64,000 nucleotides of DNA from Synechococcus sp. CB0101 (GTDB taxonomy: Bacteria > Cyanobacteriota > Cyanobacteriia > PCC-6307 > Cyanobiaceae): NCBI RefSeq assembly GCF_000179235.2, contig NZ_CP039373.1, positions 961,860 through 1,025,859 on the forward strand, read 5' to 3'. Positions 8,699-63,189 of this stretch are shown piece after piece (positions within the stretch are counted from its first letter, which is position 1; every line of letters starts with the position of its first letter). A model generated the notes under the pieces. It searched no databases and was not told where the DNA came from. It was given only the letters and a program-made list of their open reading frames with translations. The translations under genes and the position numbers were made by a program.

Positions 8699-9421
8699 CT
8701 ACATCCGACCTTGCAGGGCATAAAGCAAGGTACCTGCGGTTTCGCGCAACGCCAGCCGGTTGCGTTCACGGGCACTGAGACGAGGCTCCACCGCGAGGGG
8801 CCACACGGTGAGACCCTGATGGGCAAAGGCTCGCGCTGCCCTCGGCAGCTGCCAGGGGTCGGTGATCAACAGCACCGCTGCTCCTGGATAGTGACGCTGT
8901 AACCACAGCGAAGTGTGGGTGGCGTTCTCCCAGGTGGTGCGGGCGCAGGAATCACCGGCGACCCGCTCTGGCGGCACCCCGAGCCTCAGCAAGCGCTGGG
9001 CCGTGCTGGGCTGATGACCCGACACATACACAACCGCCACCGCATTGCTGTTCAGTTGACGCGCAGCTTCAGCGGTGGTGGCCTGGGCGATCTGGGGACC
9101 ACGCCCCAGCAAAACAGCCAGGGGGAGAGGACGGTGAGAAGCCGTCACGGCGGAATCTGGCTGCCGAGCAGTCAGCCAGCGGCTCATCAGATCGGTGGCG
9201 GCTGGGGAATAGATCCCACTGCTGAGCAAGACAAGAGTCGTAAGCAGCAGCGCACGCCATGGCCAAGGCAGTGACCATGGCAACAAGCACAGCACTAGGC
9301 CAAAACCGATCGCCACCAAGGGCAGCAACAGCCAGGGGGTGAACAGCAGCTGGAGCAGAGGCTCACGCCATTGGATCCACAGCAAAGGATCCGGCGGACA
9401 GGTCTGCCATTCAATAGGCAT
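8699..9421 (-). CDS. DUF218 (YdcF/ElyC/SanA-like) envelope protein (diverged copy)
   Basis: The 240-residue protein has an N-terminus PDPLLWIQWREPLLQLLF, two or three hydrophobic segments, then the DUF218 domain with VLLGRGPQIAQATT, VYVSGHQPSTAQRLLRLGV, DSCARTTWENATHTSLWL, LLITDPWQLPRAARAF and RNRLALRETAGTLLYALQGR. It is more diverged from the other two copies than they are from each other. Its start lies inside the 3' end of the sugar phosphotransferase gene (11-bp overlap), so the two are probably co-translated. This pairing is the strongest hint that DUF218 assists the initiating glycosyltransferase step. Confidence 0.88.
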   Translation of the reverse strand: MPIEWQTCPPDPLLWIQWREPLLQLLFTPWLLLPLVAIGFGLVLCLLPWSLPWPWRALLLTTLVLLSSGIYSPAATDLMSRWLTARQPDSAVTASHRPLPLAVLLGRGPQIAQATTAEAARQLNSNAVAVVYVSGHQPSTAQRLLRLGVPPERVAGDSCARTTWENATHTSLWLQRHYPGAAVLLITDPWQLPRAARAFAHQGLTVWPLAVEPRLSARERNRLALRETAGTLLYALQGRM

Positions 9422-10823
9422 TTCCGGAGCGAAGCCGCAGGAAGGTTTTGATCAGGATCTTGATGTCAAGCTTCAGACTCCATTCACGTTGATAGGTGAG
9501 ATCGGCATAAATGCGATTTTCCATGTCTGACAACTCACGCGTTTCACCGCGCCAACCAGACACCTGGGCAAGACCCGTGATCCCAGGTTTACAGGCATGG
9601 CGCTGCATGTAACCGGGGATCACTCTGCGGTAGAGCTCGTTGTGCTGCACCGCATGGGGGCGAGGCCCCACCAGGCTCATGTCACCACGGAGCACATTGA
9701 ACAGCTGCGGCAGCTCGTCCAGGCTCCAACGGCGTAGGAAACCTCCTACAGGCGTGATGCGCGGATCATCAGCCGTGGCCTGCTTCACCACTGCTTGATC
9801 AGCAGAATCGAGCACACGCATGCTGCGAAACTTGAAACATTTGAACCGCTTTCCATCCAAGCCGTAACGATCCTGCATGTAAAAGACAGGGCCTGGACTT
9901 GAAAGCTTCACGGCAATCGCAATCACCAGCAGCAACGGTGCAATCAACACCACGCCGATGCCAGTGAGAACGAGATCAAAACTACGTTTCAGTTGGCGAT
10001 CAAGCAGACTTCCCTCACTTCCCCAGAGATCGATACAGGGCTGTGTGCCGATGCTGTCGACCGTGAAGCGCATCGTGGGATGCGCCCAGTGCGGTGCATA
10101 GACAATCGGGATGGAGCAATCTCCAAATAATTGAACCATCTGATCCATCCCCAGGCCATCACGGGTGACGTGACTGAACACCAAGCGGTCGACATCATGA
10201 CTGTTCAACCAATCACGCAGCTCTCGCAAGCCACCGGAGCAGCTGGGCAAATTCTGCGAATGTTGATCCGGCCGTGTTGGTGCCGGCGAAAACCAGGCAA
10301 TGATCTGATACCCCATCCATGTGTTGCTGGCGATCTGCTCAGCAAAAGCCTCAGCCGCATCAGGAAGACCCCAATAGACAATGGTGCGGCTGTTGCCTCC
10401 CTGACTTCGATGCCATCGCAACCACTTGCGCAGCAACACATGGGTGGACAACAACCACAACCAACCACTGAAGGCCCAAAGGCTGCTGTCGAGACGCGAA
10501 AACGATGCTGAACTTTTGCTGATAAAAGCTGCCGTTAGCAGAAGACCCAGCACAAACAACCAGGAGGTTGTGATCCGGCGGATCAGCACTCGCAGACTGC
10601 GGTGCCGATAGCTGGAATAGAGCCCGGCACGGGGAAGAATCAGGATCGCCGTCAGAGGCAGGAGGATCCAGAAAGGCAACCAGGCTTCACTGCCCAGCCC
10701 ACGACTGCCAGAGTCGAAACCCAGGAACAGCAGGGTGAGCACGAGGGGATCGAGCAGACGTTGCAGGCGGGAAATGTCCTGGCCATGCAGGCGAAACAAA
10801 CCGCCCCAAGGTGAGCGCTTCAA
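9411..10823 (-). CDS. Undecaprenyl-phosphate sugar phosphotransferase (WcaJ/WbaP-like), complete
   Basis: The 470-residue protein is the complete member of the family here. The first 280 residues hold several membrane spans and a nucleotide-binding-like domain ([34 protein letters not shown]). The catalytic bacterial sugar transferase domain starts at [15 protein letters not shown], with [44 protein letters not shown] and [15 protein letters not shown], ending near [12 protein letters not shown]. It transfers a hexose- or deoxyamino-sugar-1-phosphate to the undecaprenyl carrier. It is upstream of and overlaps the DUF218 gene. Confidence 0.93.
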
Positions 10824-24363: not shown

Positions 24364-25449
24364 TCAAACAGCCATCCACAACGTAGCTGGACTGGGGTCA
24401 AGTTCTGTTAGTGGTGGATTGATCCAGACCACCTCTGGTTGACGCCAGCAGCGTGTTGATCGTGACCACCGGCGTGGGTTTCGCTTGCGCGCCTGCTCGT
24501 AGACGACAGCGCGGTGACGACAGATCTCGACGGCCTGACCGCTGTGGCGTTGATGGGGCGTCACGAATTTGATGCCGCTATGGCGGTGCCGGTGGTTGTA
24601 CCAGTCCGCAAATGACGCCACCCACTGGCAGGCCTCGTCCTTGCTGGCAAATGGCCGTCTCGGGTAATCAGGCCGGTACTTCACTGTGCGGAACAGCGAT
24701 TCGGAGTAGGGGTTGTCATTGCTGACGCGCGGCCGTGAGAACGACCTGAGCACACCCAGTTCTTCCAGCCGGCTTTCCAGCGTGGCCGCGCGCATCGCGT
24801 TGCCGTTGTCAGCGTGGAGGATCAGCGGTTGGCGGCGCCTCTTGCTGATCTTCTCTCTCAAGCAAGCTCTGCTGACCAGATCCGCTGCAATGGCTGGATC
24901 CTCGCGCTCGGCGACATCCCAGGCAACGACCTTGCGGCTCCAGACATCGATCACCAGGTAGAGGTAGAGCCAGATCCCGCGCACGGTGGTGGGCAAATAG
25001 GAGATGTCCCAACTCCACACCTCATTTGGACCAGCGGCCTTCAGCCGTGGCACGGGTCTTGGATCCTGTGGTGGCCGTGCACGACCCCGCCGGTGAACCT
25101 GACCGTGAGCGTGCAGCACCCGGTAAAAGCTGCGTTCCGAACCGATATAAAGCCCGCGATCGGCCAGGACCGGCACGATCTGGCCTGGCGGAAGCGCCGC
25201 GAATTCAGGTTCGTTGCAAGTCAGCAGGATCCGTTGGCGTTCCTCCTCGCTCAGGCGGTGAGCCACGTGCCGGAAGCTGCCCTTGCGATGGTCGACACCA
25301 TCACCGTCACCAGCAAACTGACGGCGCCAGCGCTGCAGCGTGGTGAGCCCCACGCCAAGCAGCAGGGCCAGTTCACGAGCCCGGGCACCATTGGCCATGC
25401 CCTCCTCAAAGATCTCCAGGGCCTTCCGGCGATCGTCAGGCGAGGTCAA
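24364..25449 (-). CDS. IS3-family transposase OrfB (copy 2)
   Basis: The 361-residue protein starts at a TTG overlapping the orfA stop (TSPDDRRKALEIFEEGMANG). An HTH_21-type N-terminal region precedes the rve integrase domain. The DDE residues lie in VWSWDISYLPT, LHADNGNAMR and NDNPYSESLFRTVKYRP, followed by WYNHRHRHSGIKFVTPHQRH. It catalyses cleavage and strand transfer of the element, probably as an OrfAB fusion. The frame is intact. Confidence 0.93.
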   Translation of the reverse strand: MTSPDDRRKALEIFEEGMANGARARELALLLGVGLTTLQRWRRQFAGDGDGVDHRKGSFRHVAHRLSEEERQRILLTCNEPEFAALPPGQIVPVLADRGLYIGSERSFYRVLHAHGQVHRRGRARPPQDPRPVPRLKAAGPNEVWSWDISYLPTTVRGIWLYLYLVIDVWSRKVVAWDVAEREDPAIAADLVSRACLREKISKRRRQPLILHADNGNAMRAATLESRLEELGVLRSFSRPRVSNDNPYSESLFRTVKYRPDYPRRPFASKDEACQWVASFADWYNHRHRHSGIKFVTPHQRHSGQAVEICRHRAVVYEQARKRNPRRWSRSTRCWRQPEVVWINPPLTELDPSPATLWMAV

Positions 25450-27695: not shown

Positions 27696-28911
27696 GGAAA
27701 TTCTGGAAAACCCAGCCCGTCTGCGCGAAAATGAACCTGTAATCGCAGACCAGGACTGGGTTGATGGGCGGCAAGCAGCTCGGTTTCACGGACTATGAGC
27801 TGACCACGGCCAAGAAGCGCACCAAGCGCGAGAAATTTCTCTCCGAGATGGAGGCTGTGGTGCCTTGGCAGGCACTCATCGATCTGATCGAGCCGCACTA
27901 CCCCAAGGCGAGCAAGAAAGGCGGCAGGCCTCCCTATCCGCTGGCAACGATGCTGCGCATTCATCTGCTGCAGCAGTGGTACTCCCTCAGCGATCCGGCC
28001 ATGGAAGAGGCCTTGATCGAGGTGCCCACCATGCGCCGCTTTGCCGGCATCGAGCTGATCAGCGATCGGATCCCGGACGAGACCACGATCCTCACGTTCC
28101 GCCATCTGCTTGAGAAGCATGGGCTGGGTGAGCAGATTTTTGACACCGTCAAAGCGCTCCTGGCCGCTCGGGGCGTAACCATGCGTCAGGGCACGATCGT
28201 CGATGCCACCTTGATCGCAGCGCCCAGCTCCACCAAGAACAAAGATGGGAAGCGGGATCCGGAGATGCACCAGACCAAAAAGGGCAACCAGTGGTACTTC
28301 GGCATGAAGGTCCACGCCGGCGTTGACAAGGACTCAGGCCTGATCCATTCGGTTGTCGTCACCGCCGCCAACGTGCACGACCTCACCCCGGCAGCTGAGC
28401 TACTGCATGGAGATGAGGAGGTGGTGTACGGCGATGCTGGCTACCAGGGCATCGCCAAGAGACCAGAAATGGCTGGCAAGACAGCGGAGTTCAGAGTGGC
28501 GATGCGGCCCGGCACGCGCAGGGCTCTTCCTGACACCCCGGATGGGAGGGTGCAGGATCTGATCGAGACGGCCAAAGCTCACATCCGCTCCAAGGTTGAG
28601 CATCCCTTCCGTGTGATCAAGCAGCAGTTCGGCTTTCAAAAGACCCGGCTGCGAGGCTTGGCCAAGAACCGCTGCAAAATCAACGTGCTTGCGGCACTGT
28701 CGAATCTGTACCAGGCCCGACGACAATTACTCGCGACAGTGTGAACAGGGACTTGGTGTGCCTGCACACCTCTATTTAGCCTCAAAACCAGCCGAAAGTG
28801 GCTGGATATGTGAGCCAAGGTCATCAAAAAATGGCCTCAGAGGCAATTTGCAGCCAAAACCACTCTTTCTGCTCGCTGCCGCCGCTCAAACACCGCTTGT
28901 CCAGAGTTTCC
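27696..28911 (+). mobile_element. IS5-family insertion sequence (1,216 bp) with TTAA target duplication
   Basis: The ends GGAAATTCTGGAAAA and, on the other strand, GGAAACTCTGGACAA form imperfect inverted repeats. Both sides have TTAA (27692-27695 and 28912-28915), matching the 4-bp target duplications of the IS5 family. One intact transposase gene lies inside. The element sits at the junction between the AT-rich island and GC-rich sequence, with a gmd fragment directly beyond its right end. Confidence 0.9.
27764..28744 (+). CDS. IS5-family transposase
   Basis: The 326-residue protein starts MGGKQLGFTDYELTTAKKRT. An N-terminal DUF772-type domain (LIDLIEPHYPKASKKGGRPP, YPLATMLRIHLLQQWYSLSD) is followed by a DDE_Tnp_1 domain: IVDATLIAAPSSTKN (Asp), VVYGDAGYQGIAKR (Asp) and KVEHPFRVIKQQFGFQKTR (Glu). 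All catalytic residues are present and the frame is intact, so the element may be active. Confidence 0.93.
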   Translation: MGGKQLGFTDYELTTAKKRTKREKFLSEMEAVVPWQALIDLIEPHYPKASKKGGRPPYPLATMLRIHLLQQWYSLSDPAMEEALIEVPTMRRFAGIELISDRIPDETTILTFRHLLEKHGLGEQIFDTVKALLAARGVTMRQGTIVDATLIAAPSSTKNKDGKRDPEMHQTKKGNQWYFGMKVHAGVDKDSGLIHSVVVTAANVHDLTPAAELLHGDEEVVYGDAGYQGIAKRPEMAGKTAEFRVAMRPGTRRALPDTPDGRVQDLIETAKAHIRSKVEHPFRVIKQQFGFQKTRLRGLAKNRCKINVLAALSNLYQARRQLLATV

Positions 28912-28915
28912 TTAA

Positions 28916-29230
28916 TACTTGATAACGCGGCTGAATGATCCGAATCAGATTGGTGCTGTCGGTGAGGTCGCCGTAATGCAGCACCAGGCGGGGATTTACC
29001 TCATGGGGATCCTGGTAAAGGTGGTCGATCCGATCGGTGTTGAAACTGCTGGACCGGCGTTTAATGTCGTGCACTTCATAGCCCTTCTCCAGAAGCAGCT
29101 CCGCCAGGTAACTGCCGTCCTGGCCGGTGATTCCAGTGATGAGTGCAGTTTTGGCGGGGGCCCCGAGCAGCACCATGCAGGTGTGAATGCCGATGAAGCC
29201 TGCGCCGCCGGTAATCAGAATTTTGCTCAT
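28916..29230 (-). pseudogene. Chimeric fragment: GalE N-terminus fused to Gmd N-terminus
   Basis: From ATG 29230 the frame reads [20 protein letters not shown], a GalE-type Rossmann start. After LLGAPAK it runs in frame into [40 protein letters not shown] and [16 protein letters not shown], which is the start of GDP-mannose 4,6-dehydratase (compare 36216-37406). Gmd homology stops at RIIQ, about 20 bp before the IS5 right end. Two nucleotide-binding starts in tandem would not form a working enzyme. It lies 8 bp downstream in sense from glmS on the opposite side, so is probably a relic of a larger dehydratase gene. Confidence 0.8.
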
Positions 29231-29238
29231 GGTTCCAC

Positions 29239-31131
<1,893 letters not shown>

Positions 31132-31344
31132 GGGATGGGTCAAAGACGTCTAAAGTGGAAGTTGGCTGGACGTCAGTGATACTTGCAATCACGCGGACTG
31201 ACATTCAGTGGACAGACAAGACGCAGAGCCGGCTACTGAATTCGGCGGGCAAAGGTGCAGGAGCCGTAAACTCGCAGTCAAAGATAAGAATCGAGGGCCG
31301 ACTTAACAATCGACCCTATAAATATGAACAGAGATGAAAAGGGG

Positions 31345-33693
31345 TCAGCGGCGCTCATCCAACCAGCGCAATCCCGCTTCAGCACGTTCGCGCAGCTGCT
31401 TGAGCTTGGGATACTGCGCTTCAAACTGCTTCAGTGGATTGGGCTTCGACGATTGAGGTGCGTAGCCATAGCCATAGCCATAGCCATAGCCATAGCCATA
31501 GCCATAGCCATAAAGTTTGGCGGCGGGTTGGGTTTGGTTGGTGATCACACCCAACAGATCAGCGTTGGAGGCCTGAATCCGTTTCAGCGATTGAGATGGC
31601 AGATTGCGATCAATCCGCCCCAGGCTCACCACAAACAACAAACCATCCAGGTGATCACCGAGCAACAGCGGCTCCACCAGATCCAGAGCCGGTGGGGTGT
31701 CGAACAACACCAGATCAAACTGAGGCAGCGCACGCAACTGCTGGATCACCTCGCCGCAGCGCGCTGAGCTGAGCAATTTGGCTGCATCCGGAGGCCGCCG
31801 GCCCACCGGCAACAGCGCCAGATTGGCTTCAGGCCACTGGAGCAAAGCCTCTAGTTCTGGCGGATGCTCCGTGAACAGCTCACTCCAGCCGCGTGCCCCA
31901 TCAGCGGCAAAACGCTGATGCAGCTGCATCTGGCGCAAATCACCATCCACCAACAACACCTTCAAGCCAAGATCGGCCAGGGCTTGGCCCAGCAAGGCCA
32001 CGCTGGTGGTTTTGCCTTCTCCGCTTGCGGTTGAGGTCACCGCGAGCATGCGCAGGTTGCCGCCGGCGCGCACCAATTGCAGGGAGCGATAGAGGTTGCG
32101 CAATGATTCCCTCAGGCCAAAGCGCTGTTGATCATCGAGCTGCTCCCACAAGCCATTAACGCTCTGAAAACGCTCCAGCGGCAGGAAGGGGATACTGCCC
32201 AAGAGCGGTTGATCAATCCCCTGCTCCACATCCCGCGGACTATGGAACACATGATCCAAACGGTCGCGTAGCAACGCTGCACCGGCACCCGCCATCGCAC
32301 CCAACAGCAAGCCGAGCATCAAATTGCGCGACAGGTTGGGTTTAACAGGGGTCTCATCAACTTCCGGTGGACTGATCACCTGCCAGGGCAGTGTTTTCTG
32401 CGCCACCTCCAAGCGGAAGCTCTCACGTGCCTTGAGGTAGCTGCTGAGGTTTTCGCTGGCAATCTCCAGCCGTTGATTCAAGGCGTCGTATTGCTTCACC
32501 AGCTCAGGGCCCACCACCCGAAACGCCTTCTCCAGCTGAGCCAGCTGACGTTGCACCTCGGCCTGTTGGGCCGCGTTTTCCTGCAATGCAGACGCCACGG
32601 CGTCGAGCTGCCGGCGCTGCAACAGCGGCCGCAGCTTGTTGCGTTGAGCCGTAAGGCTTCGCACCAAAGGAGAGCTGCTGCGGAAGGTGCCACTGGCTTC
32701 CGCCAGTTGCTTCTCCACATCGGTGAGATCAGCCAACAGCTGGCTGAAGGCACCACTGGCTAGGGCACCACTGAGGTCAGCTCCGGTTGCGGGTTTGAGC
32801 CCACCGCCGCCGCTGACACCCGATGCTCCTTGGAATTGCGGCGAAAACAGTTGCCCGCGCCTTACAGAAGCCTGCAACCCCACCAGCTGGGCTTGGCCCT
32901 GCTGCAATTGGCGCTCGCGCGCCTCGAGATCCGCCCGTTCCAGTTCGATTTGCTTGGCGCGATCCTCTGGAATCAGAAGAGCATTCGCGCGGCGGAAGTT
33001 GGCCAGCTCTTGCTGGATCTGGCTCACACGCTCCTGCAGGCCGGGTGCTTGCTCGTCGAGGAACTTCAATCCTTGCGAGAGCTTTTCCTGCCGTTGGCGC
33101 AGCGAATAGGCGAGATACGACTGGGACAGCGCCTTGAGGAGCTGCTCACCCTGCTGAGGATTGCGCCATTGCAGGCTCACTTTAAGCACGCCATCCGCAT
33201 CGCGTTGCACGCTGCGGGCCGTGACACGGCCAACCAATGCATCAGGCTCAAGCCCTTGGGCGTTAGCTAAGGGCTGCAGCAGCATCGGGCTGGTGAGCAC
33301 CTCAATCAGGTTGGGTAAGTCCACTGTGCCTGGATTCACCAACGCCAGGTCAGAGAGCTGATTGCTGGGGCCACCCAATTGGCGATCTTCACTGAGGGGA
33401 TCACTCACCAGCAAGGTGAAGCTGCCCTCATAGGTGGGGCGAAACAAGCGCTGCCCCAGCGTGAGCACCCCGGTGATCGCCAGGGTGACGCCAAAGCCCG
33501 CCAAAAACCAGCGCCGCCGTCGCCGCAGCGCCATCCAGATCTCTTTGAGGTTGATCTCGCCATCCGGTACGGCGGGCATCATCATCAGCCCTTCAGGCGG
33601 AGCAACTCCCGCTGGCGGCTGCAGGCGACTGCCGTTGGAGCTGGGGGAGGACAAAGCCAAAGGGTGTGACGTCAAAGAAAAGGGGCGATGCAA
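31345..33693 (-). CDS. Wzc-like polysaccharide co-polymerase / bacterial tyrosine kinase
   Basis: The 782-residue protein has an N-terminal Wzz domain (INLKEIWMALRRRRRWFLAG, first membrane span), a long periplasmic coiled coil (about residues 190-440), a second span (NLMLGLLLGAMAGAGAALLR) and a cytoplasmic BY-kinase domain. The kinase has Walker A TASGEGKTTSVALLGQALAD, Walker A' LKVLLVDGDLRQMQLH and Walker B FDLVLFDTPPALD. After the kinase, AAKLYG opens a run of eight Tyr-Gly pairs plus one more Tyr. Tyr clusters at the C-terminus are the autophosphorylation sites in this family. It controls chain length and export together with Wza. Confidence 0.93.
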   Translation of the reverse strand: MHRPFSLTSHPLALSSPSSNGSRLQPPAGVAPPEGLMMMPAVPDGEINLKEIWMALRRRRRWFLAGFGVTLAITGVLTLGQRLFRPTYEGSFTLLVSDPLSEDRQLGGPSNQLSDLALVNPGTVDLPNLIEVLTSPMLLQPLANAQGLEPDALVGRVTARSVQRDADGVLKVSLQWRNPQQGEQLLKALSQSYLAYSLRQRQEKLSQGLKFLDEQAPGLQERVSQIQQELANFRRANALLIPEDRAKQIELERADLEARERQLQQGQAQLVGLQASVRRGQLFSPQFQGASGVSGGGGLKPATGADLSGALASGAFSQLLADLTDVEKQLAEASGTFRSSSPLVRSLTAQRNKLRPLLQRRQLDAVASALQENAAQQAEVQRQLAQLEKAFRVVGPELVKQYDALNQRLEIASENLSSYLKARESFRLEVAQKTLPWQVISPPEVDETPVKPNLSRNLMLGLLLGAMAGAGAALLRDRLDHVFHSPRDVEQGIDQPLLGSIPFLPLERFQSVNGLWEQLDDQQRFGLRESLRNLYRSLQLVRAGGNLRMLAVTSTASGEGKTTSVALLGQALADLGLKVLLVDGDLRQMQLHQRFAADGARGWSELFTEHPPELEALLQWPEANLALLPVGRRPPDAAKLLSSARCGEVIQQLRALPQFDLVLFDTPPALDLVEPLLLGDHLDGLLFVVSLGRIDRNLPSQSLKRIQASNADLLGVITNQTQPAAKLYGYGYGYGYGYGYGYGYAPQSSKPNPLKQFEAQYPKLKQLRERAEAGLRWLDERR
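31465..31512. repeat. Hexanucleotide microsatellite (GCCATA)8 in the kinase tail
   Basis: There are eight perfect 6-bp units; on the coding strand each reads TATGGC, giving Tyr-Gly. Because the unit is a multiple of three, slippage would change the number of Tyr residues without shifting frame. A final TAC outside the repeat adds a ninth Tyr. Confidence 0.97.
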
Positions 33694-33833: not shown

Positions 33834-34133
33834 TCAAGGCATCCGACCTAAATGCGCAAAATGCCGCCGCACTTGCTTGGGCCGGCCATACCACGGCCAA
33901 AACGGTTCGTTGAAGTCGCGATAAAACAGCGTCACATCCAGATGATCAAGCGGTACGCGGTGGCGCTTGGAGAAGGCCACCAGCTCCTGCATCGTGGTGA
34001 TCTGACGCAGGTGAAATTGCAGATGCAGATGGGCACTCACCCAATCCACAAACGCCTGTACCTTCTGCCGCCGGCGCTCAAAGTCGCGCAGGGCGGAGCG
34101 GGGCTCGGGATCCGGCTGGGAAGTACGGCTCAT
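33834..34133 (-). CDS. Conserved hypothetical protein (about 99 aa)
   Basis: The start MSRTSQPDPEPRSALRDFER is chosen because its ATG overlaps the galE stop (TGATG); a longer frame inside galE is less likely. The small basic protein has VQAFVDWVSAHLHLQFHLRQ and ends FWPWYGRPKQVRRHFAHLGR. I do not recognise a domain. Tight coupling to galE-fcl-gmd suggests it belongs to the same operon. Confidence 0.6.
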   Translation of the reverse strand: MSRTSQPDPEPRSALRDFERRRQKVQAFVDWVSAHLHLQFHLRQITTMQELVAFSKRHRVPLDHLDVTLFYRDFNEPFWPWYGRPKQVRRHFAHLGRMP

Positions 34134-35170
34134 CAAACCCGAAAGCGCCGTTGATGCCATTGCCAGGCGTGCTCGATCATCGTGCGCAGCTCTGGATAGC
34201 GGGGAATCCAACCCAGTTCACGCATCGCCAAAGCAGCCGAAGCCACCAGCACCGGTGGATCACCCTCTCGCCGCGGCGCCACATGGGCCAGCAAGCCGCG
34301 CTTCGTCACCTCCTTGGCGGTTTCGATCACCTCCTGCACGGAATACCCGGTGCCATTGCCGAGGTTGAAGACCTGATAGGTGGGTGAGGGTGCCAGCCGC
34401 TCGAGCATCTGCTTCAGGCCGAGCACGTGGGCATCCGCGAGATCACACACGTGGATGTAATCGCGAATGCAGGTGCCATCGGGGGTGGGGTAATCGTCGC
34501 CATAGATCTGCAGGTACGGCCGCCGGCCGCTAATCACATCCAGTACCAGCGGGATCAAATGGGTTTCTGGTTCGTGGTGCTCACCCACCAGAGCGGAAGG
34601 ATGGGCGCCGGCTGCATTGAAATAGCGAAAAGCCACCGATGGTTGGCCGTGGGCCTTGGCCACATCCGCCAACAGCTGCTCCACCATGGCTTTGCTGCGG
34701 CCATAGGGATTGATCGGCCGCTGCGGGCAACTCTCCTGAATCGGGATCTGATCCGGATCGGGTACGCCGTAGGTGGCGCAGGTGCTCGAGAACACCAGCG
34801 GAATCATCTCGCCGCGCCGCTCTCCCTCCGCAAGCAACACCTCCACCAAGGTGAGCGATTCCGCCAGGTTGTTGCGGTAATAGAGCGCCGGCCTCTCCAC
34901 GCTCTCGCCCACATAGGCATAGGCCGCAAAATGCAACACCGCTTGCACGGGGGCCTGTTCAGTGGCGGGGTGGTGGCCACCGATCAGTTGCTCCAGCAAG
35001 GCACGATCACCCACCTGGCCTTGCACCAAGGCCACATCTAAGGGCTCGAGAACATCGCCGTGGCCATACACCAAGTTGTCGAGCACCACCACGCGGTAGC
35101 CCTGCTGCTTCAGAGCCATCACCGTGTGGGAGCCGATGTAACCGGCCCCACCGAGCACCAGAATCGTCAT
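34133..35170 (-). CDS. galE: UDP-glucose 4-epimerase
   Basis: The 345-residue extended SDR has MTILVLGGAGYIGSHTVMAL (NAD site), HFAAYAYVGESVERPALYYR, FSSTCATYGVPD (catalytic Ser/Thr) and NPYGRSKAMVEQLL (YxxxK). YFNAAGAHP and DYPTPDGTCIRDYIHVCDLA are GalE signatures. It interconverts UDP-glucose and UDP-galactose, supplying precursors for the glycan. Its start overlaps the fcl stop (ATGA) and its stop overlaps the next small gene. Confidence 0.95.
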   Translation of the reverse strand: MTILVLGGAGYIGSHTVMALKQQGYRVVVLDNLVYGHGDVLEPLDVALVQGQVGDRALLEQLIGGHHPATEQAPVQAVLHFAAYAYVGESVERPALYYRNNLAESLTLVEVLLAEGERRGEMIPLVFSSTCATYGVPDPDQIPIQESCPQRPINPYGRSKAMVEQLLADVAKAHGQPSVAFRYFNAAGAHPSALVGEHHEPETHLIPLVLDVISGRRPYLQIYGDDYPTPDGTCIRDYIHVCDLADAHVLGLKQMLERLAPSPTYQVFNLGNGTGYSVQEVIETAKEVTKRGLLAHVAPRREGDPPVLVASAALAMRELGWIPRYPELRTMIEHAWQWHQRRFRV

Positions 35171-36216
35171 CCCAAACGGGCCAACTGGCCCTCACACTCC
35201 TGGCGGTAAGCCGTCACCGTGCTCGCTAGGCCCTGTTCGAGCGAGATCCGCGCACGCCAGCCCAGCCCGGCCAGCCGGCTGCTATCCAACAACTTGCGCG
35301 GCGTGCCATCCGGCTTGCTGGGATCCCAGGTGATCGTGCCGCGAAAGTCGCATTCACGCGCCACAGCGTTGGCGAGATCGCGAATGCTGATTTCAGCGCC
35401 ACTGCCCACGTTCAACACGGTGAGCGGCTCACCATCGTCGCCGCAAGGTGCATCGCTGGCCGTTGGATCCCAATGCTCGAGTGCAAACACACAGGCCTCG
35501 CCTAGATCATCCACATGCAGAAATTCACGCAAGGGGGAACCACTACCCCAGCAACGCACCTCGCTCGCGCCGCTATCGGCAGCCTCTTGAAAGCGCCGGA
35601 TCAGAGCCGGCAACACATGGCTGTTGGTGGGGTGATAGTTATCACCAGGTCCGTAGAGATTGGTGGGCATCAGGCTGATCGCATCAAAGCCGTGCTGCCG
35701 CCTCAGGGCATCACACAACTTGATCCCGGCGATCTTGGCGATCGCATACCAGGCATTGGTGGGCTCCAGGGCACCCGTGAGCAGAGCCTCTTCGCGGATG
35801 GGCTGGGGCGCCAATTTGGGATAGATGCAGCTACTACCCAGAAACAACAGCCGGCGCACACCACAGCGCCAAGCGGTTTCGATCACATGGGTTTCGATCT
35901 TGAGGTTCTCGAGCAGAAAATCGGCCGGGTAGGTGTTGTTGGCCTGAATGCCACCCACCTTGGCGGCAGCCAACACCACCACTGAGGGCCGCTCCCGCTC
36001 AAACCAGCGCTCCACTGCCTGGGAATCCAATAGATCCAGCTCGCTGCGCGCAGCGGTGAGCAGAGCACCGCCAACCGCTGCATCGCCATACCCCGCGCGG
36101 CGCAGGGCACGGCAGATGGCCGAGCCGGCCATGCCGCGATGGCCCGCCACAACGATGCGATCACGGGGCGTGAGCAAGCCGCCAGGGCTTGTACTCGATA
36201 CCGCTGGGACCGCCAT
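35167..36216 (-). CDS. fcl: GDP-L-fucose synthase
   Basis: The start at [13 protein letters not shown] (36216) overlaps the gmd stop (TGATG), preferred to the upstream frame that runs through gmd. The 349-residue protein has VVAGHRGMAGSAICRALRRA (NADP site), VVLAAAKVGGIQANNTYPAD, FLGSSCIYPKLAPQPIREEA and NAWYAIAKIAGIKLCDAL (YxxxK). LMPTNLYGPGDNYHPTNSHV and PLREFLHVDDLGEACVF follow. It epimerises and reduces GDP-4-keto-6-deoxymannose to GDP-L-fucose. The pathway partner gmd is directly upstream. Confidence 0.95.
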   Translation of the reverse strand: MAVPAVSSTSPGGLLTPRDRIVVAGHRGMAGSAICRALRRAGYGDAAVGGALLTAARSELDLLDSQAVERWFERERPSVVVLAAAKVGGIQANNTYPADFLLENLKIETHVIETAWRCGVRRLLFLGSSCIYPKLAPQPIREEALLTGALEPTNAWYAIAKIAGIKLCDALRRQHGFDAISLMPTNLYGPGDNYHPTNSHVLPALIRRFQEAADSGASEVRCWGSGSPLREFLHVDDLGEACVFALEHWDPTASDAPCGDDGEPLTVLNVGSGAEISIRDLANAVARECDFRGTITWDPSKPDGTPRKLLDSSRLAGLGWRARISLEQGLASTVTAYRQECEGQLARLG

Positions 36217-37406
36217 CAGCGCTGCACCCCCGGCCCAGACAGTTGGGCCGCCGCCTGAGCCGCCGCCACCGACTCGGGATTGGTGGGTGGGTTCTCCATC
36301 GAGCCCACCACTGGGAATCCCTTGAGGCGCAACAAGGCTTCCTTGCGCGCTTCCTGTTGATCGGCAGCCACCATCTCCGCCACAAGCTCCTCCAGCGTGG
36401 TGGTGGGCGTCCACCCCAACTGCTCTCGCGCCTTGCTGGGATCGCCGAGCAGGGTTTCCACCTCGGCCGGGCGGAAATAACGCGGATCAATCCGCACCAC
36501 CACCTCACCGGTGTGGCGCTTGCCCACCTCAGCCAAGCCCTCACCCTCCCACTCGATCGCGCCCCAGCCCAAGGCCTCGGCCGTGAGCTCAATGAAACGG
36601 CGCACCGTTTCCTGCCTGCCCGTGGCGATCACGTAGTCCTGAGGCTGATCCTGTTGGAGCATGCGCCACTGCATCTCCACGTAATCGCGGGCATGGCCCC
36701 AGTCGCGCAGCGAATCGAGATTGCCCATGTAGAGACAATCCTCGAGCCCGGCATCGATCCGCGCCAGCCCACGCGTGATCTTGCGGGTGACGAAGGTCTC
36801 CCCGCGACGCGGGGATTCGTGATTGAACAGGATGCCGTTGCAGGCATACATGCCGTAGGCTTCCCGGTAATTCACCGTGATCCAGTAGGCGTAGAGCTTG
36901 GCCACGCCATAGGGGCTACGCGGATAGAACGGCGTGGACTCCTTCTGCGGCACCTCCTGCACCAGCCCGTAGAGCTCGCTGGTGCTGGCTTGGTAGATCC
37001 TGGTGCTCTGGGTTAACCCCAACATCCGCACCGCTTCCAGGATGCGCAAGGTGCCAAGCGCGTCGGAATTGGCGGTGTATTCCGGTGCTTCAAAGCTCAC
37101 CGCCACATGGCTCTGAGCCCCGAGGTTGTAGATCTCGTCGGGCTGCACCTGTTGAATGATCCGAATCAGGTTGGTGCTATCGGTGAGATCGCCGTAATGC
37201 AACACCAGCTCCGGGTGCTGCCCGTCACGGCCTTGCTCGTGGGGGTCTTGGTAGAGATGGTCAATCCGGCTGGTGTTGAAGCTGCTGGCTCGGCGCTTGA
37301 TCCCATGCACCTGATACCCCTTCTCGAGGAGCAGTTCAGCCAGATAGGAACCATCCTGGCCGGTGATACCAGTAATAAGCGCAACGGGGCGTGACCGATT
37401 GGTCAT
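36216..37406 (-). CDS. gmd: GDP-mannose 4,6-dehydratase
   Basis: The start is ATG 37406 ([20 protein letters not shown]). The protein of about 396 residues has [60 protein letters not shown] (catalytic Thr and Glu) and [20 protein letters not shown] (YxxxK). [17 protein letters not shown] closes the core. It makes GDP-4-keto-6-deoxymannose for Fcl. The C-terminus ends in an Ala/Gln-rich extension (about 30 residues) beyond the usual length. A second, broken gmd start is at 28916-29230. Confidence 0.96.
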
Positions 37407-37507
37407 GGGTAACAAGCGATCGGGAATGAAAAGCCGGACGGGTCTGACTGAATGCTGAAGGGATGAATTGATTGACTAGAAGTTGCCAAGGCAGCTAGGA
37501 GGCTCGC

Positions 37508-40672: not shown

Positions 40673-41814
40673 TCAGTTGTTGTTGTTGTTGTCCTGAATC
40701 AGCCTGACCAAAGCCCAGATATTGACGAGGCCGGTCACCGGTGTAGCGATCGCACCGATCGCATCGGATAAGCGTGCGTAATTGCTGCGATTCACAATGA
40801 CCGTGTCCCCATCACGCAAAGGGGGATTTCGGGAACTGCTGACGCCTTGTGAGTAGTCAATGGAAAACAACTCACGTGTCGCTGTGCCATTGCGATTGAT
40901 GCGCACCAACTCAACATCGCTGCGCTTGGCTCGCCATGTTTTGGGACCACCAGCAGCCAGAATCGCCTGGACAACCGGGGTATTAGCCTTCACCTCAATC
41001 CGCCCAGGCTCGACCACTTCTCCCACCACATTCACCTCAATGCTTTGAGGCGAGAGATTGGCTGCAGCCAGTTCCATGACCTCGGAACTGGGCGTCAAAG
41101 CAGTGCCGATGACAATCGTGTCACCATCAAAGACAAAGGGGTTCTGGCGCTTGTCTCCACGTTGCAACAACGCCGCGAGATCAAGCTGAGCCTGCCGCAG
41201 CTGCTGTCTATCCCCAGGAAGTCGACGTTCCAAGGTCACATTGGTCAGGTCGGCGTTTAAGGTCAGCCCTCCGGCCTTCTGAATGGCTGTCACCACGGTG
41301 GGTAAGCCACTGATGGTACTGGCTGGACCACCCTCGGTCTGCGAAATTTCGCTTGTTGTAAGTGAATAGAGACCAGGGCTCTCGACCTCTCCAACGACAG
41401 AAATCTGAATCGGCCTGGCACGTACAACCCTCAGGTTCAGGTCAGGCCGCAGTAGATAGCGCCCATAGAGGGTCTGGAGCCATAAATTAGCTTGATTAAC
41501 AGTTAGTCCTTCCAGCACAACATTTCCAACCAGTGCAAGACTAGCGCTGCCGTCATTAAGGATTTCAAACACTCCACCTAAATCTTTCGCCCCGGATCAA
41601 GGATCGTGAGCTGCAGTTGATCACCAGGTCCCAGGATGTAAGCATCTTGGGTGACAATAAAGTTCTCAGATGCTCCTGGCTTGCCCCCCTGAGCCACAAC
41701 TTGCAGACCCAAAGCAGATCCACTAGAGAAACTAGCCCACACAATTGCACCGCAACCGATTAAGGCCCGCCGAAACACTACGGAAGATCTAGGAACGGAG
41801 CGTTCACCGGCCAT
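40673..41814 (-). pseudogene. Wza-like polysaccharide export protein (Poly_export + SLBB), single frameshift
   Basis: The N-terminal frame (MAGERSVPRSSVVFRRALIG, secretion signal) reaches YILGPGDQLQLTILDPG, the Poly_export start. The downstream frame carries VFEILNDGSASLALVGNVVL, ISVVGEVESPGLYSLTTSEI and VVGEVVEPGRIEVKANTPVV (SLBB repeats). One more G in the G4 run (C4 at 41591-41594) joins them as ILDPGAKDLGGVFEIL, giving 380 residues. The C-terminus ends in five Asn. Wza forms the outer-membrane channel for export. The rest looks functional, so a base-calling error is as likely as a mutation. Confidence 0.85.
40676..40690. repeat. Trinucleotide run (GTT)5 encoding a C-terminal Asn5
   Basis: Five perfect GTT units at the very 3' end of the export gene give Asn-Asn-Asn-Asn-Asn-stop on the minus strand. 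Copy-number changes would keep the frame. Confidence 0.95.
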
Positions 41815-43475: not shown

Positions 43476-45137
43476 TGTTGCATCACGCGTAGCAACTGCC
43501 CATGGACCCTCCACGGGTTGACACGCAAGGCGATCAGCCAAGCCGGCCCGGGACTTTGCGGGAACGTGAGCGGATTGCATTGGCGATCAGTGCGGCCTCA
43601 GAGCGTTACCGGAGCCTGAGCCGCGCTTGGAAGCAGCGCCTGTTGGATGAGTTGGAGGCGCTGAGCGGCTATCACCGCAAATCGCTGCTGCGCCGGTTGA
43701 ACCAGCGAACCGATCAGCAGCAGAGCAGCCGGCGCGGCCAACACCGCCGCCGGTACGGCCCGGAGGTTGTTGAGGCGCTGGTACCGCTGTGGGAAGCCAG
43801 CGATCGGCTGTGCGGCAAGCGCCTGCATGCGCTGCTTCCGCAGCTGGTGGAATCACTCGAGCACCACGGTCACCTGCAGCTGGAGCAGTCGGTGAGGGCA
43901 CGGGTGTTGATGATGAGCAGCGCCACGATTGACCGTCTGCTGGCCCAGTGCGCCAGAGCAGTGGAGGCAATGGATGGAGACGCCCTCCCCGGGCCCACAG
44001 CGGTGTTCGCCGCCGCGTGCAGGTGCGCACGTTCAAGGGATGGGATGACCACAAGCAGCCCGGCTGGCTGGAGATCGATCTGGTGGCCCACTGCGGGGGG
44101 CGCCTGGAAGGTCGCTTCATTTGGACTCTGGTAGCCACCGATATCGCCACGGGCTGGAGCGAGAGCCTGCCGGTGATCACGCGCGATGGGGCCTCGGTGT
44201 TGGCCGCTATCCAGCGACTGCGGCAGCAACTTCCCTTCCCGTTGCGTGGAATCGATGCCGACAACGATCCAGCGTTCATGAATGCGCTGATGGAGCAGTG
44301 GTGTGATGCACCGGAGCAAGGGATCGAGCTCACCCGCTCACGCGCCTACCAGAGCAACGATCAGGCCTGGGTGGAGCAGAAGAACGGGGTGCTGATCCGC
44401 CGTGTGGTGGGCTACGAGCGCTTGGTGGGCCTGGAGGCCGCTCAGGTGCTAGCTGAGCTGTACGCGGCACTGCGGCTGTTCACGAACCTGTTTCAGCCGT
44501 CGTTCAAGCTCAAGAGCAGCGTGCGGGAGGGAGGCCGGATCAAGCGGCTGCACCACCCGCCGCGGACACCGCTGCAGCAGCTACTGCGTACCGGTGTGCT
44601 GGGCGAGCAGGAAGCCGCTGACCTCAGGGAGTTGAGACAACGGTGTGACCCTGTGGCGCTACTAGCCACGATGCGCAGCTGCCAGAGCCGGTTAGCGCTG
44701 TTGATCAGCGGCCAGCACGCCAACGCCATGGCGGGTGATCCGCTTGCCTGGAAATCCCCAGAAGAAGAAAAACGAGAGCTGGAGCGCTTTCTGCAGGGCT
44801 TACAGGCGCTGTGGCGCCAGAGCAGACCAATGCAGAAAAAGCCCAAACCGCGGCAAGGCCGCCGCAGCCGTGTGGATCCCTTTGAGGTTCATGCAGCCCT
44901 CATCCCCCAGTGGTTGGAGGCAGAGCCGGATGTGGGCAGCCAGGAGCTACTGGAGAGGCTGATCGCCTTGGCCCCTGAGCGCTATGGCCCCCAACACAAA
45001 CGCACGCTGCAGCGGCGAATCAGGGATTGGCGCGTGGCCAGGGTGCAGCAGGCCCTGGAGCGTGCAGCAGACAGACCAGAACCCAAACCCTGGACAGAAG
45101 AGGGAGTGTTACCAAGCGTCAACTAAAGACGGTAACA
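43476..45137 (+). mobile_element. Integrase-type IS (IS1202/ISNCY-like), about 1.66 kb
   Basis: The outer ends read TGTTGC at 43476 and, on the other strand, TGTTACC at 45137. Each end also contains its own small palindrome (GTTGC..GCAAC at the left, GTTACC..GGTAAC at the right). One transposase gene fills the element. Boundaries are approximate and no target duplication was found. It interrupts a conserved hypothetical on its left and a sigma factor gene on its right. Confidence 0.75.
43502..45126 (+). pseudogene. Integrase-core transposase, single frameshift
   Basis: The first frame (MDPPRVDTQGDQPSRPGTLR) contains the N-terminal binding region (YHRKSLLRRLNQ, RRYGPEVVEALVPLWEASDR, ATIDRLLAQCARA). 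From near 43960 the other frame is right: VRTFKGWDDHKQPGWLEIDL (first catalytic Asp), FPLRGIDADNDPAFMNALME (second) and AYQSNDQAWVEQKNGVLIRR (Glu), then a long C-terminal part ending EEGVLPSVN. One missing base between LLAQCARA and GGNGW explains the switch. Confidence 0.82.
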
Positions 45138-62019: not shown

Positions 62020-63189
62020 GTGACCGCCAGCGCGACGAGCCCTGCCCGCGAACCCCTCACCACGGCCAGCCCCCTGCCGGTCACCATCCTCACCGGTTTT
62101 CTCGGGGCAGGAAAAACCACACTGCTGAATCACATCCTCAGCAACCAGCAGGGCGTGAAAACAGCCGTGCTGGTGAACGAGTTTGGCGAGATCGGGATCG
62201 ACAACGATCTGATCATTGCCACCGGTGAAGACATGGTGGAGCTGAGCAACGGCTGCATCTGCTGCTCCATCAACGGAGAACTGCTCGACGCGGTGTATCG
62301 CATCCTCGATCGCCCGGATCCGGTGGATTACCTGGTAGTGGAGACCACCGGCCTTGCGGATCCGTTGCCCGTCGCGATGACATTTCTAGGCAGCGATCTG
62401 CGCGATGCCACCCGCCTCGATTCGATCATCACCCTGATCGACGCGGAGAACTTCAGCGACGAGATTCTCGATGGCGAAGTCGCACGGGCCCAGGTGGTCT
62501 ACGGCGACATCCTGCTGCTCAACAAATGCGACCTGGTGAGCGAGGAGCGCCTGGCTGAGGTGGAAGGCAGGCTGCGGGAGATCAAAACCGACGCCCGCAT
62601 CCTGCGCTCGGTGAAAGGCGACGTCAGCCTGCCGCTGCTGCTGAGTGTGGGGCTGTTCGAAAGCGACAAGGTGGCCGCCGAGCAGAACCACGACGACTGC
62701 GATCACGATCACGGCCACTGCGTGCACGACCACGATCACGGGCATTCCCACGATCACGATCAGGCCCACGACCATCACGATCACAGCAACTGCGATCACG
62801 ACCATGGGCACTGCGAGCACGAGCACGGCCATGACCATGGCCACACGCACGATCACGGCCACGCTGATCACCTGGCCATCGAAGGGTTCACCTCGCTCTC
62901 CTTCAGCAGCGATGGCCCCTTCGCCCTACGCAAGTTCCAGAATTTCCTGGATAACCAGCTCCCCGCTGGCGTGTTCCGGGCCAAAGGCATCCTCTGGTTC
63001 AACGAGAGCGACAAACGCCACGTGTTTCACCTCGCCGGCAAGCGCTTCTCCATCGATGACAGTGAGTGGGGCTCAGCCGGCGATCGCAAAAACCAATTGG
63101 TGCTGATCGGCAAAAACCTTGACCACCCCCAACTGCGCAAGCAGCTCCAGGCCTGCGTGGCCAAGGATGCAGGCAAAGGCTTCGCCTGA
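62020..63189 (+). CDS. CobW/ZNG1-family metal-chaperone GTPase, His-rich
   Basis: From a GTG at 62020, 389 residues. TILTGFLGAGKTTLLNHILS is the P-loop, NGCICCSINGELLDAVYRIL has the CxCC metal motif, VVETTGLADPLPV is Walker B-like and LLNKCDLVS recognises guanine. A linker of about 60 residues (about 225-287) is packed with His and Asp (DHDHGHCVHDHDHGHSHDHD). A CobW C-terminal domain follows (FRAKGILWFNESDKRHVFHL). Such GTPases deliver Zn or Co to client proteins. No Zur box was recognised upstream. Confidence 0.95.
   Translation: MTASATSPAREPLTTASPLPVTILTGFLGAGKTTLLNHILSNQQGVKTAVLVNEFGEIGIDNDLIIATGEDMVELSNGCICCSINGELLDAVYRILDRPDPVDYLVVETTGLADPLPVAMTFLGSDLRDATRLDSIITLIDAENFSDEILDGEVARAQVVYGDILLLNKCDLVSEERLAEVEGRLREIKTDARILRSVKGDVSLPLLLSVGLFESDKVAAEQNHDDCDHDHGHCVHDHDHGHSHDHDQAHDHHDHSNCDHDHGHCEHEHGHDHGHTHDHGHADHLAIEGFTSLSFSSDGPFALRKFQNFLDNQLPAGVFRAKGILWFNESDKRHVFHLAGKRFSIDDSEWGSAGDRKNQLVLIGKNLDHPQLRKQLQACVAKDAGKGFA

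Follow-up and report, generated by a model that had tools for sequence, protein, structure and literature searches.

For Wzc of Escherichia coli K30, subunit tails are described as entering the active site of the neighbouring subunit, where they are phosphorylated from the C-terminal towards the N-terminal side (PMC11986026). In the same account, the tyrosine two residues back sits in a pocket during phosphorylation, and the octamer dissociates after the fourth phosphorylation (PMC11986026). No single tail tyrosine is reported to be essential, and it is the extent of phosphorylation that counts (PMC8285477, PMC11986026). According to a review of these Y-clusters, longer or more uniform chains accompany lower phosphorylation, and shorter or more varied chains accompany higher phosphorylation; tyrosine number and arrangement are stated there to be poorly conserved across species (PMC12220298).

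A cyanobacterial example is reported from Synechocystis 6803. Here, the Y-rich end of the Wzc protein Sll0923 is phosphorylated, and Wzb (Slr0328) dephosphorylates it in vitro (PMC6562117). When the 25-residue Y-rich end was missing, released polysaccharide was reported as unchanged and capsular polysaccharide as increased by 19% (PMC6562117). An open question is in what way the stability of the Wzc octamer and the length of the polymer depend on the count of tail tyrosines. In a different setting, simple-sequence-repeat contingency loci are pure, short tandem repeats that vary in length and thereby switch genes on and off.

The window analysed here is a 64,000-nucleotide stretch of Synechococcus sp. 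CB0101 (contig NZ_CP039373.1, positions 961,860 to 1,025,859). It contains a Wzc-type kinase gene in which the tyrosine tail is encoded by a pure hexanucleotide repeat, so that slips in DNA copying could alter the count of likely phosphorylation sites in a kinase that controls the sugar coat. A search of titles and the opening parts of abstracts, mostly in the non-subscription literature, found no report of a kinase tail built from such a repeat.

The kinase and its C-terminal tail

The gene occupies positions 31345..33693 of the minus strand and encodes 782 residues from the listed TTG. The open reading frame list, Pfam, a match in the PDB and a congeneric sequence together identify the product as a PCP-2a BY-kinase of the Wzc type. 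The real start codon may be located downstream of this TTG, as the match to the congener opens only at residue 43. This congener (L003, in genome G015) is the nearest relative found and is 76% identical across residues 43–782. CbiA and AAA_31 score above their Pfam cut-offs, and the solved Wzc kinase 7nhr (PDB) matches with an E-value of 3e-24. Matches to Wzz (24.9 bits, cut-off 25.5) and GNVR (21.4 bits, cut-off 27.7) lie under the curated Pfam cut-offs, as do the NCBIfam scores for eps_fam (99.5 of 108.05 bits), the Wzc equivalog (104 of 1068) and eps_transp_fam (109.7 of 411.7). The protein is therefore a divergent PCP-2a kinase, which falls outside those named models.

The kinase domain was read using definitions of the Walker A, A′ and B motifs, which appear as TSTASGEGKTT at residue 553, VLLVDGDLR at 579 and VLFDTPP at 662. 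Across 113 family rows, the glycine of Walker A is present in all 113 and its lysine in 108, the aspartates of A′ in 113 and 112 and its arginine in 113, and the aspartate of B in 113. By simple hydropathy, hydrophobic segments lie at 62–80 and 457–475, both outside the kinase domain, and a third peak, at 564–582, lies inside it. EX2RX2R is the ring-contact motif of BY-kinases; in the window kinase its second arginine is replaced by tyrosine (ESLRNLYR), and Phe or Tyr stands at this position in 109 of the 113 family rows.

Directly after the kinase domain comes the peptide LYGYGYGYGYGYGYGYGYAP, in which nine tyrosines fall within 17 residues and alternate strictly with glycine. The (Tyr-Gly)8 portion is encoded by (TATGGC)8 at 31465..31512 on the minus strand, and the ninth tyrosine by TAC at 31462..31464, all other tyrosines of the cluster being encoded by TAT. 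On the plus strand the array reads as eight perfect GCCATA units (31465–31512), and an open reading frame there (31324–31767) carries (Ala-Ile)n as the mirror image of the kinase-tail repeat. An earlier, sequence-only reading of this stretch had proposed a Wzc-like kinase with a tail of nine tyrosines on eight perfect GCCATA units; the first part is upheld by Pfam, the 7nhr match and the Walker motifs, and the second by the window letters and TRF. Its statement that the kinase ends in the array does not hold, as 38 further residues follow and close with a Trp-hydrophobic end common to most family tails.

This extension (31345..31461 on the minus strand, stop included; translation and family tails) ends in AGLRWLDERR. 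A tryptophan with L, I, F, V or M as the next residue lies within the last 15 residues of 89 of 110 complete family tails against 2.9 expected on shuffling (maximum 9 in 200 shuffles), a test that overstates independence in that the tail rows are related sequences. None of the nine outside-family tails long enough for the test has it. The last 22 residues, taken over 106 tails, have a mean amphipathicity of 0.47 against 0.34 for shuffled sequences and a net charge of about +4. The segment between the tyrosine tail and the Trp-hydrophobic motif differs widely among family tails in both length and letters, and a constraint on the Trp-hydrophobic end is therefore favoured. This end could be a putative membrane- or partner-binding helix, possibly amphipathic and basic. 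One family tail (L111, G311:C29) abruptly loses its resemblance to close relatives after YHYAY and reaches an early stop, as if in another frame, which may reflect an assembly error or a real change.

A perfect array at a single place in the genome

TRF reports the repeat at 31463–31512 with a period of 6, 100% matches and a score of 100, the highest among the 14 entries that it gives for the window. When (TATGGC)4 was searched for with up to three mismatches, it was found at a single place in the whole genome (one contig of 2,789,616 bases; six overlapping matches). The probability of eight identical Tyr-Gly units, calculated from the gene's own usage of Tyr and Gly codons, is 8.9e-5. Together, the TRF score, the genome-wide uniqueness and this own-codon probability rule out a chance repeat.

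The hexamer was also followed in other genomes. (TATGGC)5 is present in 11 of 400 family genomes and in 3 of 386 phylum genomes, these sets overlapping. In nine of the 11 it lies inside a kinase tail (G000, G015, G172, G233, G249, G299, G317, G409 and G412). In G070 (L072, about 365–394) the hexamer is on the opposite strand and is read as a His-Ser repeat within a 403-residue, His-rich frame, and in G366 (L082, about 1501–1530) it encodes an internal (Tyr-Gly)6 in a 925-residue frame with no kinase match. In the third phylum genome, G723 (L074), (TATGGC)5 lies in a low-complexity stretch. The window itself holds, at 62679–62826, imperfect tandem repeats of CACGACCA-like units, which would read His-Asp in one possible frame.

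Tyr-Gly arrays across the family

Of the 131 kinase ORFs in the survey, 113 belong to the bacterial family of the window, presumably picocyanobacteria, and the remaining 18 to different families within the class. Matches that stopped short of query residue 190 of 202 were dropped, and the set leaves out the second copies L105, L107, L108, L109 and L117, as well as L002 and the pattern-hit loci except L072, L074, L078 and L082. Some weaker matches lie outside it, for example those in G413, G427, G321, G416, G442, G429, G306, G361 and G294. A search for relatives in genome contigs matched 68 stretches, with one distant relative (L038) that has (YG)4Y with mixed codons and is not among the 131 rows.

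At least five consecutive Tyr-Gly units are present in 20 of the 113 family tails, and even two consecutive units are absent from all 18 outside-family rows. Twelve of the 20 arrays are perfectly pure at the DNA level against 0.09 expected from the codons of their own genes (maximum 2 in 5000 runs); leaving aside three arrays whose ORFs are truncated at a contig end, nine of 17 are pure. Similarly, mean unit identity within the 20 arrays is 0.80, compared with 0.22 in simulations from own-gene codons (maximum 0.33 in 5000 runs). The pure arrays are built from TATGGC (nine arrays), TACGGT (L174, ten units), TATGGA (L129, six) and TACGGG (L182, five). Near-pure arrays with five of six units alike use TATGGG (L055 and L119) or TATGGT (L134), and TATGGC makes up 11 of the 12 units of L050. 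The eight imperfect arrays thus consist of four that are off by one unit (L050, L055, L119 and L134) and four that are plainly mixed (L004, L056, L052 and L181), and fast turnover is therefore not common to all arrays.

Purity could in principle reflect codon preference, and the own-gene simulation rules this source out. In addition, L174 has TAC in all ten units where its own gene favours TAT by 7 to 2, and L055 has TATGGG units where its own gene favours TAC (9 to 2) and GGC (40 of 61). As these arrays run against the preference of the genes that carry them, codon bias is no explanation for purity. A reading in which purity stems from codon bias or from selection on DNA or RNA, instead of repeat turnover, can draw on TATGGC being the commonest unit (nine of 12 pure arrays and most of L050), yet it is highly improbable given the 12 pure arrays against 0.09 expected, the other units, some made from locally rare codons, and the shifts in unit number between close pairs described below.

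On the kinase tree, each state with at least four pure units requires between one and five changes; this tree has SH-aLRT support only, leaves 36 of its 110 forks open and comes with long-branch warnings. It is probable that the Tyr-Gly ladder originated, or was re-formed, on several occasions and from differing founder hexamers. That the same peptide is obtained from different hexamers points to selection at the peptide level, with local duplication as the supplier. The varied pure units would fit protein-level selection for a YxY ladder that is supplied by local duplication or slippage.

Repeat number between relatives

The window array has eight TATGGC units and that of G015 has nine. Over the 526 identical residues that precede the tail, the two genes use the same codon at 241 (46%). 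For glycine, codons are identical at eight of eight positions in the array and at 19 of 41 elsewhere, whereas tyrosine codons are uninformative (eight of nine in the array, six of seven elsewhere). The overall and glycine counts thus show synonymous sites that are heavily scrambled outside an array that is spotless.

Among close pairs, L155 and L158 (88% amino acid identity) have seven and three pure TATGGC units between recognisably conserved flanks, and L127 and L129 (92%) have two and six units, the six being TATGGA. L004 and L056 (94%) share an interrupted, mixed-codon array of seven units each with synonymous change inside it. The arrays of L120 and L137 (93%) differ too, in a more complex manner. 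The stable interrupted array, set against variable pure ones, would be the behaviour expected of a microsatellite in which interruptions stabilise length, as judged from few pairs. Turnover of repeat number between species, each represented by one genome, is well supported by these sequence comparisons.

The sequence-only reading had anticipated in-frame differences in unit number, and these are borne out between species, both for the window and G015 and for the close pairs. It had also named the opposite pattern, a constant number accompanied by synonymous drift elsewhere, as one that would speak against it. Between species this was not seen; the number differs and the array is synonymously pure, in a comparison that has one genome per species.

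Unit counts may be wrong in L047, L051 and L106 because of contig ends: L047 and L106 break off within the array, and the L051 contig ends about 45 bases past it. In genome G299, three contigs (L047, L106 and L078) end in or beside (TATGGC)n arrays, and at least two kinase genes there are therefore cut at the array.

Tyrosine spacing in tails without arrays

A YxY step is present at every position of the array, and at least one YxY is found in 69 of the 77 family tails that lack (YG)3. In these 77 tails, tyrosine pairs two residues apart number 295 against 125 on shuffling (maximum 154). Pairs three apart (167 against 121 shuffled) and four apart (240 against 118) are likewise enriched in these tails. 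The 18 outside tails have 15 pairs two apart against 7 shuffled (maximum 16), which is no clear enrichment.

Genomic surroundings

The kinase gene is surrounded by genes for polysaccharide functions. On the minus strand, a small ORF without a Pfam match (33834–34211) is followed in coordinate order by an epimerase-family gene (34133–35170), a second member of the epimerase family that is interpreted as GDP-fucose-synthase-like (fcl-like; 35167–36414) and a GDP-mannose 4,6-dehydratase gene (gmd; 36216–37415). This block (33834..37415), with the kinase gene, is syntenic between the window and G015 as gmd, fcl-like, epimerase, small ORF and wzc. A GlmS-like protein with SIS and glutamine amidotransferase domains is encoded at 29239–31143, a Wza-like export protein with SLBB over the Pfam cut-off and Poly_export just below it at 40673..41572 (minus strand), and an initiating-type sugar-phosphate transferase with Bac_transf and CoA_binding_3 at 9411..10823 (minus strand). 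Glycosyltransferases and a sulfotransferase are also among the polysaccharide genes of the window. In the 16 kb around the G015 kinase, GlmS, the Wza-like protein and three further ORFs were searched for and not found.

A search of the genome with PF01943, the one flippase model used, found no match, and the three Wzy_C proteins of the genome are all encoded outside the window; the window is therefore not shown to hold a full Wzy locus. The genome has one gene for a low-molecular-weight (LMW) tyrosine phosphatase, which is also outside the window. A short minus-strand ORF at 28886–29242 resembles by eye the beginning of an epimerase that continues into a GDP-mannose dehydratase fragment; the longer dehydratase is that at 36216–37415. 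ORFs with an integrase core (rve) flank the kinase region at 24364–25449 (minus strand) and 43948–45126 (plus strand), the second scoring under the Pfam cut-off. The G+C content of the window is 57.5%, compared with the 64.1% given for CB0101 in PMC6715862, and the region may for this reason have been imported.

Proposed explanation and alternatives

The explanation that best accounts for these observations, to which a probability of roughly 0.7 is given, is that of a selected YxY ladder that is renewed by turnover of a six-base unit, giving pure arrays of variable number. Here, the protein would be a polysaccharide co-polymerase kinase of the Wzc type, with a tyrosine tail that forms a ladder of YxY steps, and selection would maintain a run of tyrosines at two-residue spacing. 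As in E. coli K30, each tail would thread the active site of the neighbouring subunit and be phosphorylated stepwise, and this would loosen the octamer and so regulate polymerisation. With a strict YxYxYxY ladder, a pocket tyrosine would be available at every step but the last. The array would grow and shrink by in-frame duplication and deletion of six bases, likely through replication slippage, which is not separated here from recombination. Where arrays are pure, turnover would outpace synonymous substitution, so that the array would remain pure, the remainder of the gene would drift, and species would come to differ in the number of units. By analogy with E. coli K30, we infer that the tail is phosphorylated and that this affects the polymer.

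A stronger proposal, which goes back to the sequence-only reading, is that unit number switches within populations and tunes chain length or export. The array would then be a hypermutable, frame-safe contingency locus, an in-frame 'tuning knob' of picocyanobacterial Wzc that varies the number of ratchet steps and never turns the gene off. Arrays of 5–12 units, mostly pure, do differ between species, and the link drawn in the review between Y-cluster phosphorylation and chain length (PMC12220298) makes a dial plausible. This proposal is nevertheless doubtful. The K30 results, as reported, stress total phosphorylation over single tyrosines (PMC8285477, PMC11986026), and as a single K30 tyrosine is dispensable, one among nine may be buffered. 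Removal of the Synechocystis tail is likewise reported to have a mild effect (PMC6562117). Furthermore, many family kinases have tyrosine tails without a repeat, such as YGYEYGYYYHYAY, and a variable array is therefore no requirement of the family.

It is less probable still, and on balance unlikely, that the array is a neutral passenger in which the Tyr-Gly units serve as a flexible spacer before the Trp-hydrophobic end and slippage has little effect. The presence of that end in 89 of 110 tails, despite the very different stretch that precedes it, would suit a spacer. A neutral spacer needs no tyrosine, however, and yet differing codons yield the same Tyr-Gly peptide, and tyrosine pairs two apart are enriched even in tails without arrays.

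Self-association, in which (Gly-Tyr)n would cluster or lock the kinase ring independently of phosphorylation, is an improbable account. A GYGYGYG peptide is reported to form amyloid-like fibrils in vitro (PMC10510724), but the array lies, by alignment to 7nhr, at the site of the Y-cluster that BY-kinases autophosphorylate, and many family tails space their tyrosines with residues other than glycine.

Beside the designed point mutants of the literature, the family provides ladders that occur naturally with 5 to 12 Tyr-Gly steps, and close pairs that lie four steps apart. Should unit number also prove to change within populations, the repeat would be a dial on a signalling protein and not an on/off switch.

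Comparison with known systems

The window kinase resembles K30 Wzc (7nhr) in its kinase domain, as judged from sequence, in its Walker A, A′ and B motifs and in its two hydrophobic segments. Right behind the kinase domain, both have a tyrosine-rich tail with YxY spacing, and the first and second tyrosines of the array align with Y706 and Y708 of K30 Wzc. Unlike K30 Wzc, the window kinase has a uniform Tyr-Gly ladder made from a hexanucleotide repeat and the 38-residue extension that follows it. The pocket residue Glu675 of K30 aligns with leucine in the window and in 94 of the 113 family kinases, and the charge-based selectivity proposed for K30 therefore cannot simply be carried over; Lys701 of K30 aligns with proline in the window kinase. 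In detail, the K30 mechanism may fail to transfer to this protein.

With the reported Synechocystis 6803 pair Sll0923/Slr0328, the genome shares a cyanobacterial Wzc, a Y-rich end and the presence of an LMW phosphatase, whereas the Y-rich peptide given for Synechocystis, YYNNRYYDR, is no repeat (PMC6562117). As in contingency loci, a pure, short repeat lies in a gene for surface polysaccharide and its unit number differs between relatives, here at the level of species. In contrast to those loci, the six-base unit alters the predicted number of phosphosites and, as it keeps the reading frame, gives no on/off switching.
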